A program made the position numbers and the translations under genes. A stretch of DNA of 64,000 bases from positions 1 through 64,000 of the forward strand of contig DVDT01000094.1 of NCBI GenBank assembly GCA_015296085.1, given 5' to 3'. The DNA comes from Trichormus sp. M33_DOE_039 (lineage in GTDB: Bacteria > Cyanobacteriota > Cyanobacteriia > Cyanobacteriales > Nostocaceae). The notes below the pieces were generated by a model, which was not told the origin of the DNA, made no database searches, and was given only the letters and a program-made list of their open reading frames with translations. Shown here piece by piece: positions 2,778-52,803 of this stretch; the stretch's first letter is position 1, and each line of letters begins with the position of its first letter.

Positions 2778-3071
2778 ATGATGAAATATGGTGTAATTTT
2801 ACTAGTATTAATATCTTCTTTTTCCTTGGCATCTCCCTCTTGGGCTATGGTTTGCCGCAACTATGAAGGGCATCAAATTTGCATTCTCAGCATCAAACGT
2901 AGTGCGAAAAAATATTGGGAATATCAGGCGGCTGTAAGTGTTGACGGTGTGAAAACACCAGTGGAAGTTTACAATTGTCGGGGTAAGTTTAAACTACAAA
3001 AAGATAGAAGTGTAATTCAATTTACCCAGAATAGTCCGGGTGAGATAATTTGTAGTTTTTTTAAGAAATAA
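2778..3071 (+). CDS. Small exported protein, unknown function
   Basis: 97 residues with a clear Sec signal peptide (hydrophobic residues 4-18, predicted cleavage after SWA near residue 23). The mature part is about 74 residues, basic, and has four cysteines that could form two disulfides in the periplasm. Two adjacent ATG codons are possible starts. It lies 2 nt behind the CPBP protease gene, so the two are probably one transcript. No family recognised. Confidence 0.65.
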   Translation: MMKYGVILLVLISSFSLASPSWAMVCRNYEGHQICILSIKRSAKKYWEYQAAVSVDGVKTPVEVYNCRGKFKLQKDRSVIQFTQNSPGEIICSFFKK

Positions 3072-3126
3072 TTAATCATTTGTGAGATGAATTAAGTTTA
3101 AGTGCCTTGTCACTTATGAAACGTTG

Positions 3127-3155
3127 CTTGACTAAGTTAATAACTTATTGTCAAG
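3127..3155. terminator. Hairpin between convergent genes
   Basis: A two-part stem: CTTGAC (3127-3132) with GTCAAG (3150-3155), enclosing TAAGTT (3133-3138) with AACTTA (3142-3147). There is no strong T-run, so termination is likely but unproven. It lies between the convergent exported-protein and pentapeptide genes. Confidence 0.4.
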
Positions 3156-45456: not shown

Positions 45457-45879
45457 TTAAGAATCATCCTCAGTATATTTGCAAAAGACGTTTACGCCAA
45501 TTTTTAATATATACAACACAACTATTGTAGCGATCGCTGCATCAATAGGGATACCGTTCACCGCAGCCATAGCTACTAGTGAACCAATAATGCCATTGAG
45601 TAAAGATGCACTACCAGGGTTTTTAGTGTACTCTTTTATTTTGCCTTGTAAACCATCATCACCGCAGATTTCCGCGCGGATTTCATTCAGAGTTAGTTGT
45701 AGGAGAGATTTATTTTTACCGTAATCTTTTCTGCCAAATTTTTCTTGCCATAATTCATCAAAACTAGCTTCTAAATCGCCATTATGGTGTTCTAGAGTTT
45801 TGAGTGCTTTTTGTGCTTCCTCGTCTTGAATAATTTGGTTAAGTCTTTGAATTTCATCAGGAGATACTTGAATTGTCAT
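45457..45879 (-). CDS. UBA-like N-terminus with C-terminal membrane segments, unknown function
   Basis: 140 residues. Residues 1-50 read as a helical bundle (IQRLNQIIQDEEAQKALKTLEHHNGDLEASFDELW) like UBA domains; about 95-135 is hydrophobic, one or two membrane segments (IIGSLVAMAAVNGIPIDAAIATIVVLYILKIG). No enzyme motif. It borders the decayed toxin-antitoxin locus in the accessory island. It may be an effector or adaptor, but this is speculation. Confidence 0.6.
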   Translation of the reverse strand: MTIQVSPDEIQRLNQIIQDEEAQKALKTLEHHNGDLEASFDELWQEKFGRKDYGKNKSLLQLTLNEIRAEICGDDGLQGKIKEYTKNPGSASLLNGIIGSLVAMAAVNGIPIDAAIATIVVLYILKIGVNVFCKYTEDDS

Positions 45880-45899: not shown

Positions 45900-46319
45900 T
45901 TAAGGTGTATTTGTTAATTCTTGAATTAATTGTTCAGGTGTAAGAATCCGAGGAGTGGATATAGGAAAATCTCCAGGATTACGAGTAATAATAGCATCTA
46001 AGTGATTAATTACCGCAGTGCTGTATTGAATAGCGTCTTCAAAATCTTTAAAATTAACGTTTAACGCCATATTGACTGTGTTGCTGTCTACAGTAGCAAT
46101 ACGGCAGAAGTTGACTATCTCACGTCAAAACTCAAGGGCTAAACTTCGGCTTTTTTCTTTACGGAGAATATAATAAATGTCACTAAATGAAAATCAACAG
46201 ATGTAACCTTCAATTTGTCCTTGTTCAACAAAGGATACAACTGTTTCACTATTGGTAAAAAATGGCTGTCGCTCAAGGGCAATATCCAAAATAATATTGC
46301 TGTTTAACAAGACTTTCAC
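45900..46319 (-). pseudogene. PIN-domain (VapC-like) toxin gene with two in-frame stops
   Basis: Read from GTG 46319, 140 codons give VKVLLNSNIILDIALERQP ... VDSNTVNMALNVNFKDFEDAIQ ... VINHLDAIITRNPGDF, a typical PIN toxin (Asp in LDIAL, acidic DFEDA, ITRNPGDF). TGA codons interrupt it at 46194-46196 and 46125-46127, the rest of the frame being intact. No single-domain active protein can be made unless stops are read through. GTG overlaps the TGA of the broken antitoxin. Confidence 0.82.
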
Positions 46320-46596
46320 AGATTATGCTTCTCCTTTAATGCTTCCCATCTGGCTGCATCAGCATCAAAGTCAGGAGGTGCTGGTTGTGTCTTTTCAAAC
46401 CAGCCTTGCAAAGCTTTGATTTTTGTTTGTCTTTTTGGCTTGTCTGGTTGTGGTTCGGTAGAAACTTTTGTGGAAGTTATCTCAGATAAAGTTTGCAAAT
46501 AATAACTTCCACTTCACCAGGAGCAATATTTAAAGGTTCGTCAATAATCAAATTACCTGATTCATCAATTGTGGCGTTTACCTTGTAGGCTTGCAT
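46316..46596 (-). pseudogene. Frameshifted antitoxin gene of the PIN toxin
   Basis: From ATG 46596 the frame reads MQAYKVNATIDESGNLIIDE, PLNIAPGEVEVII, then stops after 39 codons. In the next frame the expected continuation appears (QTLSEITSTKVSTE ... KIKALQGWFEKTQPAPPDFDADAARWEALKEKHNL) up to 46316. One missing T in a short T-run near 46500 explains the break. Together the two parts make a complete AbrB-like/DUF2281-type antitoxin; the locus is dead. Confidence 0.8.
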
Positions 46597-46616: not shown

Positions 46617-47061
46617 CTGACTTTTCACAAGATTTGGAAAACCTCTCTCCATAGCTTGCTTCCCGCAGGGTACCTCTCCCCTAAAAGGCTACGGTGTACA
46701 CACATCTTTGTGCTAGGCGCAAAATGTGGTTTGATCCCCCTAAATCCCCCTTAAAAAGGGGGACTTTGAATCTATTCCCCCCTTTTTTAAGGCTACCGTG
46801 TATACACATCTTTGGTGCTAGGTACAAAATGTGGTTTGATCCCCCTAAATCCCCCTTAAAAAGGGGGACTTTGAATCTATTCCCCCCTTTTTTAAGGGGG
46901 GTTAGGGGGGATCAAAACGTTGTAGGGCTAGGTTATTAGACTTGTGCGTACACCGTAGCCCCTAAAAGGAAAGAGGCTTTAATTTTCCCCCTTCCCTCGT
47001 AGGGAAGGGGGTTAGGGGGTTAGGTTTTGCGTTAAATTTTCCACATAACGTGAAAAGTCAG
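46617..47061. repeat. Older composite repeat bracketed by 12-bp inverted ends
   Basis: CTGACTTTTCAC at 46617-46628 and GTGAAAAGTCAG at 47050-47061 are perfect inverses. Between them lie AACCTCTCTCC, CCTCTCC, GGAAAGAGG and CCCCCTTCCCTCGTAGGGAAGGGGG blocks, a dispersed-repeat type frequent in Nostoc. The MITE at 46687-46960 sits inside it. Confidence 0.6.
46687..46960. mobile_element. MITE copy 1 with terminal inverted repeats and 7-bp target duplication
   Basis: Starts GGCTACGGTGTACACACA and ends with GTGCGTACACCGTAGCC, an inverted repeat of about 17-18 bp. The flanking CCTAAAA occurs directly on both sides (46680-46686 and 46961-46967), a perfect target-site duplication. No transposase inside, so nonautonomous. 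The left 104 bp (46687-46790) are duplicated in tandem (46791-46895). The interior has GATCCCCCTAAATCCCCC and its partner GGGGGGATC, a large hairpin. Confidence 0.85.
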
Positions 47062-47229: not shown

Positions 47230-47357
47230 TCAAAACATTACAACTTTAAGGCAAAAGATTCCAAGGTTGACTCAAAACATTACGACTTTAAGGCAAAACA
47301 TTCAAAGGTTGACTCAAAACATCACGACTTTAAGGCAAAACATTACGACTTTAAGGC
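47230..47357. repeat. 42-bp tandem repeat
   Basis: Units 47230-47271 and 47272-47313 (42 bp each, four substitutions or so), then a half unit 47314-47336 and a further half unit 47337-47357 sharing ACGACTTTAAGGC. The period is a multiple of three, so long frames stay open here by chance; the encoded KHYDFKAKHSKVDS pattern is not a known protein. Confidence 0.8.
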
Positions 47358-47426
47358 AAATGCTTATATGTTTACCACTAACACTTCAACAAAACCTATA
47401 ACCTATAAATAGTAAACCTGAAATTT

Positions 47427-47535: not shown

Positions 47536-50500
47536 TTAATCGCTATCTCGCGCCTGCCAAATTGCCTCACGCACCTCACCCGCGCACTCTTCCCCCGTCG
47601 CCTCGCACCAAATGGCTTGAAACTGACTTTCGCCTAACTGCTGGAGCATACGGGCTAAAGCATTGATATAGTCACGAATAAAATCTTGATGATGTTCCAT
47701 GTCAATTGTTAAACCACGAATATAAATTGGCAAAGCCTCAGCATAATTTTCTTGAGCTTCTAAAACCCTTCCCCATTTACCCAATGTTAATGAAGCCCAA
47801 TACCAATCCTTGAATTGCTGATAAATTTCCCCAGCTTTTTGATAATAGTTAATTGCCACATCAAACTGCCTCTGCTCTTGGGCTACCATGCCCAGATTAT
47901 GATAGTCACTAGCAGCAGAGTACAAATCCCCCGCATCTTCAAATATCTTGAGAGCCTTGCGGTAATAATCCACAGCCACATCAAACTGCCTCTGCTCTTG
48001 GGCTACCATGCCCAGGTGGTGATATTCACGAGCAGCAGAGTACAAATCCCCCGCATCTTCTTTAATCTTGAGAGCCTTGCGGTAATAATCCACAGCCACA
48101 TCAAACTGCCTCTGCTTTTCGGCTACTACGCCCAGATTATGATAGTCACTAGCAGCAGAGTACAAATCCCCCGCATCTTCAAATATCTTGAGAGCCTTGC
48201 GGTAATAATCCACAGCCACATCAAACTGCCTCTGCTCTTGGGCTACTATGCCCAGTTGGTGATAGTCACTAGCAACAGAGTACAAATCCCCCGCATCTTC
48301 TCTAATCTTCAGAGTTTTGCGGTAATAATCCACAGCCACATCAAACTGCCTCTGCTTTTGGGCAATATAGCCTAGATTGTGATAAGCGACAGCGATTTTG
48401 TCATGCACTGAGGCATCATTTAAAGCTATCAACTCATCTAAAATTTCTTGATAAAATTTTCTCGCTCCTTCTAAATCAGCACTTCGAGCTGCTTCATTAG
48501 CTTCATTACCCCGTATATACATCCAGAAATCAAAAGCATCTTTACCTTTTGCCTTTACATCTGCTAAGTGAATGCCAACTTGCTTCAACGCCCGTTGTTG
48601 CAGTGATTTAAATTCAGGTTTGCGCCCAATGCGCTCATACACTTCTCCCAAGGCTTGCAGAATTGCTTGTGCTTGCGCCCATTCTTGTTGCTGCTCTGCT
48701 AGACGCAGGTTTTGCAATAGATTTGGTTCTTCTACTCGCAGCACAAATGTTGCTAGTTCAGCGTTGCTGATGAGTTTCTTACGGTAGCTAGCCGCCAGAT
48801 AAGCGTAGAGAATCAGCAACTTTTTTTCGAGTTCGTCAAGTTTGCCTTGTGCCTCCATAACTTGTTGGTTCAACTGCTGCCGCAAATACCAAGGTAACGC
48901 AGGGTGAATTTTGTAAATAGTTTCACCAAGCAAATATTCCAAAACACCTGCGGCTGCGGCTTCGTTGAGAATCTGCAACCAATCAGCTTTTTGCAAATTC
49001 TCTCCAAACACCGCCCGATAAGCTTGCCCAAATTCATTATCAGGGCTTTTTGAGAACGAATGCAGCAAATTTGCATTTACCCGTTCCGAGAACAAGCCTA
49101 AAAACGGTAAATGTCGCCGCGTCTTCTCCGACAACTTCGCAAAAGAATAATCCAAAGACACCGTTAACGACTTATCCCTACCTTCCTCCTCTACACCCTG
49201 AAAAGTATCTAAACCACGCCGCAACGCCTCAATTAACTGCGTTGGTGTCTGGGTTTGCAAATGCCGTAACACTACCCGCAACGATAAGGGATGTCCACCC
49301 AGCAATTTCAACAACTCTAAATACTCTTTTGGTAGGTTCTTTCTCTCCACACCCACCGTTTGTAAAATCTTCGCCGCCAATTCTTCCGCATCGGCTGACG
49401 ATAAACCATGCACGTTAATTAACTTATACCCACAATCAAGCCAAAGTTCTTCGCGGCGACTGGTAATTAATACCCAAGATTTCCCACCCCGCAATTCTTT
49501 GAGAAACCGTTTGAGGTTGTTTCTTTCTTCCTCACTCAGCAATGGTTCATTTCCTGTGGGGAAACCGTTCACGGGTTCAAAGTTATCCCAAATCAATAAA
49601 CAAGGATGGGTTTGCAGATATTGCCGCACTACCGCCTCTTGTTGTTCTATCATCAACTGGGAAAATTTATCTCCACCCAACGCCCTGCCAATTTGGTTAA
49701 TTACCTGAATTAACCCCGCACCCTGTTCAAAGGAGGTGAAGAAAATACCGCCTGTACGTCCTTGGGTATCATCCAACCACCGGGCAAAACCTGCGGCTAA
49801 CTCTGTCTTACCAACGCCGCCCATTCCCTGAAGTAATACGACATGATTTTGGCGAAATGCTCTTTCTAATGACAAAATTTCATAATCTCGCCCAATAAAA
49901 CCATAGGCACTTTCAACAGGTAAATCATGTAGAGACGTTGGGTGTAGAGACGTTTCATACAACGTCTCTACATTGTTGATTAATTCTAAAAAACTCGGTG
50001 CTTGCTGTTTCGGAACAAACGGCGTGTATGGTTCTTGTTGATATAAAACTGGCACTAACCAATCTTGTAACGGTAAATTACCTTTCGGACTGGGACGCAG
50101 TTTATCAACAGACATAGATTTACGCCCAACTGCAACGGCGGTGGCAATACATTCTCCCCTGACTAATTCGCTATACAACCGCCCAATAAAGTGTTCTGCA
50201 CCTTTGGCTTTGACTTTATACGCCATTGCTACTACACCCTTCGCGCCCAATTTCACCAACTGTCCCGCCACTGAGGAAAAGGCTTCTTCGCCTACTTGTC
50301 CTGATTTGCAAGCGTTTAAGACGAAAATTGGCACGCGACAATCTGTTAAATATTGGGCAATTTCTTTGGCGTTGACCGTTTGGGGGTTGCCTTCGTCGTC
50401 TTCAAACACTAAAACGCCTTGGGTTTCTTTGTCAAAATCCCCATGTCCATCAAAATGGACGATATGGTAAAAACCCTTATGTGCCTGTAATTCTGCTTCA

Positions 50501-51123
50501 AACTCTCTCAGGCTAGGGGGACGCAATACTTTCAGGTTGACTCGTTGGCGTATGGGTTGCAACGCTGTCAACAGGGGACGGGCTATGGTTTTAAAATTTA
50601 CGTCTCGTTCCCCATAAGGACGGGCAATTACTAATAAAATATTCAGTTGGTCATCGGGCATGGGTGGTAATGTTGCCCTAACTCCCTGACTGCTGAGGCT
50701 GCGATACATTCCTGCTAATGATGGGGCGAGAAATTGATAGTCGAGGGAATACAGCAATTCCCAAGGTAAATTCAATACCTTGGCGTTATCAGAAATTATG
50801 CCCAATTCACACTTATCTAACCCTTCCCTTGTCGCTTCCTGAAAAAACTCTCTTCCCTTCTCGGTGCTGCGAAATACTAGCTCAAATAACTCTTGTCCCC
50901 ATTGCTGCAACTGTTGTTCAATTTTGGCGGCGTTATCTGGGAATATCCCATAGGGGAACGTGAGATATTCTTCTAAATACCAGCGTAAATTAGTTAGCTT
51001 TTCTTCATCAAAACAGTGATCAAAGGGGACTTCTGGGGCAAGGCGTGGGGTTTCGTGTCCCCGTTGCCAGGATAGTTGTATGGTTTGACTGTGATGAGTA
51101 ATTCGCAACCAGTTTCTTGCCAT
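47536..51123 (-). CDS. CHAT protease - STAND NTPase - TPR protein
   Basis: 1195 residues, cytosolic. Residues about 155-360 are a CHAT caspase-like domain with catalytic His in HFDGHGDF (H227) and Cys in LNACKSG (C272). A linker (384-399) is encoded by a palindromic repeat. A STAND/NB-ARC NTPase follows (about 408-740): GRDYE, Walker A GMGGVGKT (433-440), Walker B LLIWDNFE (about 509-516) and GGHPLSL. A helical region leads to TPRs (about 915-1090), five near-identical 40-residue units QRQFDVAVDYYRKALKI. By family knowledge such proteins are NLR-like switches whose TPRs sense a trigger and release protease activity, in antiphage defence or cell death. Trigger and substrate unknown. Stand-alone gene. 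Confidence 0.9.
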   Translation of the reverse strand: MARNWLRITHHSQTIQLSWQRGHETPRLAPEVPFDHCFDEEKLTNLRWYLEEYLTFPYGIFPDNAAKIEQQLQQWGQELFELVFRSTEKGREFFQEATREGLDKCELGIISDNAKVLNLPWELLYSLDYQFLAPSLAGMYRSLSSQGVRATLPPMPDDQLNILLVIARPYGERDVNFKTIARPLLTALQPIRQRVNLKVLRPPSLREFEAELQAHKGFYHIVHFDGHGDFDKETQGVLVFEDDEGNPQTVNAKEIAQYLTDCRVPIFVLNACKSGQVGEEAFSSVAGQLVKLGAKGVVAMAYKVKAKGAEHFIGRLYSELVRGECIATAVAVGRKSMSVDKLRPSPKGNLPLQDWLVPVLYQQEPYTPFVPKQQAPSFLELINNVETLYETSLHPTSLHDLPVESAYGFIGRDYEILSLERAFRQNHVVLLQGMGGVGKTELAAGFARWLDDTQGRTGGIFFTSFEQGAGLIQVINQIGRALGGDKFSQLMIEQQEAVVRQYLQTHPCLLIWDNFEPVNGFPTGNEPLLSEEERNNLKRFLKELRGGKSWVLITSRREELWLDCGYKLINVHGLSSADAEELAAKILQTVGVERKNLPKEYLELLKLLGGHPLSLRVVLRHLQTQTPTQLIEALRRGLDTFQGVEEEGRDKSLTVSLDYSFAKLSEKTRRHLPFLGLFSERVNANLLHSFSKSPDNEFGQAYRAVFGENLQKADWLQILNEAAAAGVLEYLLGETIYKIHPALPWYLRQQLNQQVMEAQGKLDELEKKLLILYAYLAASYRKKLISNAELATFVLRVEEPNLLQNLRLAEQQQEWAQAQAILQALGEVYERIGRKPEFKSLQQRALKQVGIHLADVKAKGKDAFDFWMYIRGNEANEAARSADLEGARKFYQEILDELIALNDASVHDKIAVAYHNLGYIAQKQRQFDVAVDYYRKTLKIREDAGDLYSVASDYHQLGIVAQEQRQFDVAVDYYRKALKIFEDAGDLYSAASDYHNLGVVAEKQRQFDVAVDYYRKALKIKEDAGDLYSAAREYHHLGMVAQEQRQFDVAVDYYRKALKIFEDAGDLYSAASDYHNLGMVAQEQRQFDVAINYYQKAGEIYQQFKDWYWASLTLGKWGRVLEAQENYAEALPIYIRGLTIDMEHHQDFIRDYINALARMLQQLGESQFQAIWCEATGEECAGEVREAIWQARDSD
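47858..48378. repeat. 120-bp tandem repeats encoding TPRs
   Basis: The sequence repeats with an exact 120-bp period about 4.3 times (for example 47881-48000, 48001-48120, 48121-48240, 48241-48360) with only a few differences per unit, far more similar than typical TPRs. Each unit encodes one 40-residue TPR-like motif. Confidence 0.92.
49928..49972. repeat. Palindromic repeat inserted in frame in the CHAT-STAND gene
   Basis: TGTAGAGACGTT (49943-49954) pairs with AACGTCTCTACA (49961-49972), a perfect 12-bp stem; another left arm lies at 49928-49939. Total length 45 nt, a multiple of three, so it adds about 15 residues between the CHAT and NTPase domains. The TGTAGAGACGTT palindrome is a widespread dispersed repeat in cyanobacteria, by recollection. 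Confidence 0.8.
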
Positions 51124-52578: not shown

Positions 52579-52585
52579 AAAAGAA

Positions 52586-52803
52586 GGCTACCGTGTACAC
52601 ACATCTTTGTTGCTAAGTGCAAAATGTGGCTTGATCCCCCCTAACCCCCCTTAAAAAAAGGGGGAAACTAGAATCAAAGTCCCCCTTTTTAAGGGGAGCC
52701 ACTGCGTTGGACGGGTTTCCCGGCTTAAAGCAAGTGGCGTGGATTTAGGGGGATCAATAACGATGCAGGATAAGCTGATCAGACTTGTGTGTACACTGTA
52801 GAC
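52586..52803. mobile_element. MITE copy 2 with 7-bp target duplication and a nested repeat
   Basis: Left end GGCTACCGTGTACACACA, right end TGTGTGTACACTGTAGAC, inverses with two mismatches. AAAAGAA flanks it on both sides (52579-52585, 52804-52810). The interior shares CAAAATGTGG(C/T)TTGATCCCCC with copy 1. A second repeat (52698-52741, GCCACTGCGTTGGACGGGTTTCCC...) interrupts its right half, showing that the repeats insert into each other. Confidence 0.85.

Follow-up and report, generated by a model that had tools for sequence, protein, structure and literature searches.

The window analysed here is a stretch of 64,000 nucleotides from Trichormus sp. M33_DOE_039 (Nostocaceae; assembly GCA_015296085.1, contig DVDT01000094.1, positions 1 to 64,000 of the forward strand). 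It carries a gene for an NLR-like CHAT-STAND-TPR protein with predicted protease activity, an assignment supported by the sequence, and, downstream, a gene for a small, probably membrane-inserting protein, with which the receptor likely works in a response that kills the cell or counters phage. The tetratricopeptide repeat (TPR) sensor of the receptor shows apparent signs of rapid diversification. The CHAT-STAND-TPR architecture is already known; the linked partner and the diversifying TPR sensor are the new elements, as far as the literature was searched. The genes and domains concerned are as follows.

47536..51123, minus strand: CHAT-STAND-TPR receptor-protease gene, a single open reading frame of 1195 amino acids (Pfam; AlphaFold2 model, mean predicted local distance difference test (pLDDT) score 84.6)
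50008..51123, minus strand: CHAT protease region, residues 1-372 (H227 codon 50443-50445; C272 codon 50308-50310)
49198..49905, minus strand: STAND/NB-ARC NTPase, residues about 407-642 (Walker A 433-440; K439 codon 49807-49809; Walker B D513)
47692..48414, minus strand: TPR sensor array, residues about 904-1144 (40-residue units; central 120-bp units alike)
45457..45879, minus strand: candidate partner gene, 140 amino acids, 1.66 kb downstream of the receptor gene (linkage; weak Pfam CUE/UBA_4 matches in relatives; AlphaFold2 model; hydropathy)

Architecture of the receptor

The earlier note on this DNA had described CHAT, STAND and TPR parts in one chain, and this was confirmed: the translated frame matches Pfam CHAT (residues 103-342, E 1.1e-22), NB-ARC (427-642, E 2e-6) and a TPR_12 array (E 6.7e-45). 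The residue numbering given there was also correct; H227 (in HFDGHG) and C272 (in LNACKS) are the catalytic pair within a CHAT fold, as in a CHAT protease, and both Walker motifs are intact (Walker A, GMGGVGKT from residue 433, with K439; Walker B, LLIWDNF from residue 509, with D513). An effector domain, a STAND NTPase and a repeat sensor in a single chain make up an NLR-like protein. The best Foldseek match of the whole receptor model was the bacterial-type STAND-TPR structure 6mfv_A (E 2.9e-15), and Apaf-1 (1z6t_B) was matched at E 2.8e-9; the CHAT fold resembles Csx29 and separase, and the structural matches of the TPRs include the peptide-binding arrays LGN, Rap and NprR.

H227, C272, K439 and D513 are retained in all 66 long receptor proteins (the window's included), the aligned ones being down to 24% identical; 45 of these proteins are in alignment A2, and the remaining 21, which comprise open-ended or short proteins, L077 and several full-length proteins, were examined separately at these residues. 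The note had named lost catalytic residues in close relatives as a reason to abandon its proposal; no such loss was seen, though L077 has altered motifs around its retained histidine and cysteine, and no TPRs were found in it. Motif conservation is biased in the loci from the pattern scan of genome contigs, because the scan patterns include FYHIVHFD; the whole-genome search did not use these patterns and is free of that bias.

The genome of the window (G000) encodes further, distant CHAT, NB-ARC and TPR proteins (C89:94143-97082, C35:975-3140 and C60:106240-107301), and a search of G000 with the window's receptor protein returned 46 match rows.

The linked small protein

The whole-genome search covered 217 genomes of the family: 45 have a close (clade-1) relative of the receptor (E up to 1e-60), and 39 have a second CHAT-STAND-TPR clade (clade 2, about 29% identical), with 44 loci. 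Clustering of neighbouring genes revealed a protein of about 140 amino acids in 29 pattern-scan loci, mostly downstream and on the same strand. With receptor and partner fragments counted, and with G021:C86 and G150:C5 reassigned to the other clade, a partner lies within 10 kb at 34 of 49 clade-1 loci, always on the same strand (34/34), and at 35 of 44 clade-2 loci, on the opposite strand at 33 of them and upstream on the same strand at two; for clade-1 loci of at least 2 kb the count is 29 of 37. By our own estimate, chance would produce such linkage at well under 1% of loci (10 kb in about 8 Mb). Of 20 partner loci in genomes that lack a clade-1 match, ten have a long clade-2 receptor within about 6 kb, an eleventh (L159) has a clade-2 receptor in two frames, and nine have no receptor in range. 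The pair occurs in three arrangements across two clades, with distances from receptor stop to partner start of 7 bp (L050), 32 bp (L079) and 34 bp (L101); in L100 the partner is upstream, its end about 190 bp ahead of the point where the receptor alignment starts. Chlorogloeopsis fritschii PCC 6912, for instance, has a clade-2 receptor and a partner convergent to it.

Both partner-bearing plasmid records also carry a receptor. On Cal7716_p3 of Calothrix PCC 7716, the pair is convergent, 26 bp apart and located between transposase and integrase genes, with both members annotated as hypothetical; on pANSO36B of Nostoc cf. commune SO-36, the partner is accompanied by a receptor in two pieces. Receptor and partner distances are correlated, with a Mantel r of 0.62 for 43 pairs, 0.71 within clade 1 (32 pairs) and 0.94 within clade 2 (11 pairs; P 0.0005 each), and partners group by receptor clade on a weakly supported branch (57/27).

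The earlier note had found no effector partner adjacent to the receptor and supposed that the protein may act alone. The gene at 45457-45879, however, belongs to this receptor-linked family of small membrane-type proteins, and the linkage in two receptor clades led us to reject the solitary reading.

The AlphaFold2 model of the partner (pLDDT 88.1; predicted template modelling score 0.84) is all-helical, with helices at residues 7-16, 20-31 and 36-48 (UBA-like), 59-72, 75-86, 91-107, 114-127 and 129-135, the last three of which form a hydrophobic hairpin (residues 91-135). Hydropathy is consistent with this, the maximum 19-residue average being at least 1.89 in 61 of 61 members. Pfam matches at E up to 1 were obtained to CUE in 21 of 61 members (best 6.7e-5) and to UBA_4 in 19 of 61, which is suggestive of a UBA/CUE-like N-terminus. 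Residues 49-58 form a linker of lower model confidence (71 for block 51-60), at the end of which K57 and S58 are kept in 57 and 56 of 61 members, respectively; we propose this region as the site of cleavage.

The partner family is present in 115 of the 217 genomes (E up to 1e-5). A search of 50,697 phage records (E up to 0.01) gave no match to the partner, and a scan of viral contigs gave 42 pattern matches and no relative; on these grounds a phage-borne module was rejected.

Near non-cyanobacterial receptor relatives there is a small gene with a hydrophobic stretch and no Pfam match (L089:9298-9744, L108:3248-3634, L113:8306-8764 and L104:5532-5882), and partner swapping is possible there; the receptor frames of L108 and L113 are broken or short. 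The partner-less plasmid receptors L182 and L183 have other neighbours in common: two open frames (178 and 528 codons) that contain hydrophobic stretches and adjoin a caspase-like gene. L161, L162 and L147 contain partner genes with no receptor close by; an intact PIN gene adjoins the partner in L161, and the L147 stretch also carries a receptor-type TPR array, perhaps a relic.

Apparent sensor diversification and decay of the locus

The central copies of the window's TPR array, repeated at 120-bp steps, are 87-92% identical to a reference copy, and across the 28 clade-1 arrays found the longest exact-period run ranges from 3 to 12 units. Differences within arrays peak at unit positions 2, 9, 31, 3, 12, 6, 39 and 13 (of 40). 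The same eight positions are the most variable in clade 2 (8/8; hypergeometric P 1.3e-8), and the variability profiles of the two clades over all 40 positions are correlated (rho 0.76). Shared positions alone prove little, since in any TPR protein the positions that the fold does not constrain are the most variable; the stronger point is a ratio of nonsynonymous to synonymous polymorphism (pN/pS) above 1. For the five most variable clade-1 positions this ratio is 1.59 (bootstrap 1.24-2.18), and for the same positions in clade 2, where they had not been chosen, it is 1.69 (1.17-2.82), against 0.27 (clade 1) and 0.35 (clade 2) for the 32 positions that are not among the top eight; unit-to-unit recombination can distort these values. 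The test comprised 19 of 28 clade-1, 11 of 12 clade-2 and two of seven other arrays, with a mean unit difference below 0.35 and with edge units and arrays containing undetermined letters dropped. Near-alike units with an excess of nonsynonymous change at fixed positions, as in fungal repeats of this type, are therefore present. Positions 2, 9, 12 and 13 presumably face the groove, by general TPR numbering; the canonical groove set {2,5,9,12,13,33}, which excludes positions 31, 3, 6 and 39, is more variable than the remaining positions (P 0.009 and 0.02).

Within the genus of the window, a clade-1 receptor is present in two of 13 genomes, and the second one (G209) is in two pieces; truncated or broken copies are frequent among relatives. 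At the window's site in G204 the flanking genes and the PIN/antitoxin region are kept, but only the last 20 residues of the partner gene, and no CHAT gene was seen there; in G205 a CHAT relic (residues 345-375) lies next to one flank of the site. Among 72,556 plasmid records, 18 contain a receptor relative, and in five of these the match spans at least 80% of the query. Patchy spread, broken copies and relics, and carriage on plasmids are the pattern expected of a conflict gene.

The surroundings of the window's receptor had been described as an island of dead toxin-antitoxin genes and mobile repeats, and both were recovered:

45906..46322, minus strand: PIN-domain toxin gene relic with two in-frame stops (tblastn with a relative's PIN, 66% identity)
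46319..46596, minus strand: relic of the cognate antitoxin gene, with a frameshift near 46492-46498 (tblastn, two pieces in different frames)
46685..46970, no strand: palindromic dispersed repeat with several inverted pairs, by our own label like a miniature inverted-repeat transposable element; a related copy lies at about 52584-52800
47231..47377, no strand: repeat with a 21-nt period between the receptor gene and the toxin-antitoxin relics (repeat finding), matched in L188 of a same-genus genome

The PIN/antitoxin pair is open in many Nostoc-type loci among 30 tested. It was rejected as a core component, as nothing was found of it in eight of these loci (L050, L067, L071, L075, L078, L079, L085 and L168), several being tight receptor-partner pairs. 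The match to the 21-nt-period repeat lies at the coaD-side flank in G208 (L188, about 2875-3138), yet no receptor match was found in that genome; tandem repeats in L064, L161 and L162 resemble the repeat when translated.

Proposed function and alternatives

Where the function of a CHAT protein is known, it is the cleavage of a dedicated partner, Csx30 in the case of Csx29 and cohesin in that of separase. This precedent makes cleavage of the small protein our leading hypothesis, and we favour, at about an even chance, a two-gene NLR-like intracellular conflict module in which the activated CHAT domain acts through the partner, probably by cutting it. The TPR groove would bind a non-self or danger ligand, possibly on a phage trigger; the STAND NTPase would switch and oligomerise, and the CHAT protease would become active. 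The active protease would most likely cut the exposed linker of the partner, and the cut would free or re-arrange the hairpin, so that membrane damage might stop the infected cell. Unlike in Craspase (TPR-CHAT protein Csx29, with Csx30) and separase, the activation module would be the STAND-TPR part; no CRISPR effector was detected among seven neighbour proteins of the window tested with Pfam.

The main rival to cleavage is a sensor or anchor role of the partner, in which the small protein would sense membrane damage or anchor the complex and thereby activate the CHAT protease, the real substrate being a host or phage protein elsewhere. One article (PMC7159879) proposes such a sensor role for EACC1, a small single-transmembrane partner of caspase-type proteins, and the pairing of a small transmembrane protein gene with a caspase-superfamily protein, which may carry STAND and repeats, is a likeness to the present locus. 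EACC1 is described there as encoded by the 5' gene, with a single transmembrane segment and alpha+beta extensions, mainly in actinobacteria, whereas our partner is all-helical, with two hydrophobic helices, mostly 3' and cyanobacterial; PMC7159879 contains neither the term UBA nor the term CUE. The hydrophobic hairpin of the partner would suit a membrane sensor, and a harmless sensor or anchor would allow the many partner genes that lack a receptor, but the diversification of the TPRs suggests that it is the receptor that binds the ligand, and no Pfam match to EACC1 was seen for the window's partner (E up to 1) or among the 25 of 32 families listed for 61 relatives. We regard this alternative as unlikely, yet as the strongest of those considered.

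Rather improbable is a regulatory or developmental protease similar to HetF, itself a CHAT protein, with TPRs that bind a self signal peptide. The peptide-binding arrays among the structural matches would suit it, and HetF acts in cell division and heterocyst differentiation in Anabaena, according to PMC8406250; a developmental gene, however, would not be expected to be patchy, often broken or lost and plasmid-borne, with a diversifying sensor. A neutral or selfish passenger, i.e. a mobile cassette in decay, in which recombination, in the absence of selection, drives the TPR repeats apart, would explain the frequent fragments and relics, and the dead genes and repeats that adjoin the window's receptor; the low pN/pS outside the variable positions, the conserved catalytic and Walker residues and the divergence correlated with that of the partner make it very unlikely. 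We give an equally small chance to a toxin-antitoxin-like pair with the CHAT protein as toxin and the small protein as inhibitor, for which the tight linkage in several arrangements would speak; toxins would seldom be expected without their inhibitor, but long receptor genes without a nearby partner, as well as partner-only genomes, exist.

Several observations weigh against the cleavage module. The Mantel correlation does not distinguish co-evolution from shared ancestry; no clade-1 or clade-2 receptor was found within 10 kb of 54 of 119 partner matches (of at least 331 bp), and no partner within 10 kb at eight of the 37 clade-1 loci of at least 2 kb, four of these eight being on contigs shorter than 10 kb. 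G014, a whole genome, has a receptor (at the same coordinates as on the Tolypothrix PCC 7712 plasmid NZ_CP063786) and no partner at E up to 1e-5, and in the window itself the 1.66 kb between the two genes contains dead genes. The CUE/UBA matches are weak and restricted to a minority of partner members, and no solved structure that convincingly resembles the partner was found in a whole-model fold search of the Protein Data Bank (PDB; no E below 0.001). The partner was not found in the phage and viral collections searched, in which the receptor was not searched for. As to the sensor, the canonical groove set has a pN/pS of 1.43 in clade 1 but of 0.69 in non-clade-1 arrays (a smaller run), variation is highest at fold-unconstrained positions in TPR proteins generally, and an independent control TPR array was looked for and none was found.

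A further and more tentative proposal is a bacterial system of the fungal NLR type, in which TPR units would be copied and re-shuffled and fixed groove positions diversified for strain-specific recognition of invaders, with proteolytic release of a UBA/CUE-headed, membrane-disrupting partner as the readout; no diversity-generating retroelement would be needed (none was searched for nearby). Fungal NB-ARC/TPR NLRs (Podospora) have near-identical TPR units with positive selection at few positions, all on the concave side, as stated in PMC4986451, and the receptor shares with them the N-terminal effector, the NB-ARC domain, near-identical units in varying number and apparent selection at few positions. 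It differs in being bacterial, in its CHAT effector and in the linked small membrane-type partner, and the groove placement of its variable positions is presumed from general TPR numbering.

Fusions of caspase-superfamily proteins with NACHT or NB-ARC and repeats have been described in bacteria, as have conflict systems built from these parts in multicellular bacteria (PMC3501461, PMC8195603 and PMC10907252). A description of the receptor-partner pair, or of diversifying TPRs in bacterial STAND proteins, was not found in the titles and abstracts searched, which does not prove its absence. PADLOC yields only partial or weak matches for the system: its candidate PDC-M35B has weak profile similarity to partner residues 46-137 (E 1.3e-5), the PDC-M35 models do not match the window's receptor (E up to 0.01) or six other receptors (E up to 0.1), and the term PDC-M35 was not found in the literature searched.

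Bacterial STAND proteins with caspase-like effectors are long-suspected immune receptors. The locus offers two handles, a linked candidate substrate or effector and a short list of apparently diversifying sensor positions, which make recognition and readout directly testable. On the more tentative proposal, the locus would encode an immune receptor of multicellular bacteria that diversifies through its repeats; it would also be a bacterial counterpart of the concerted repeat evolution seen in fungal non-self recognition.

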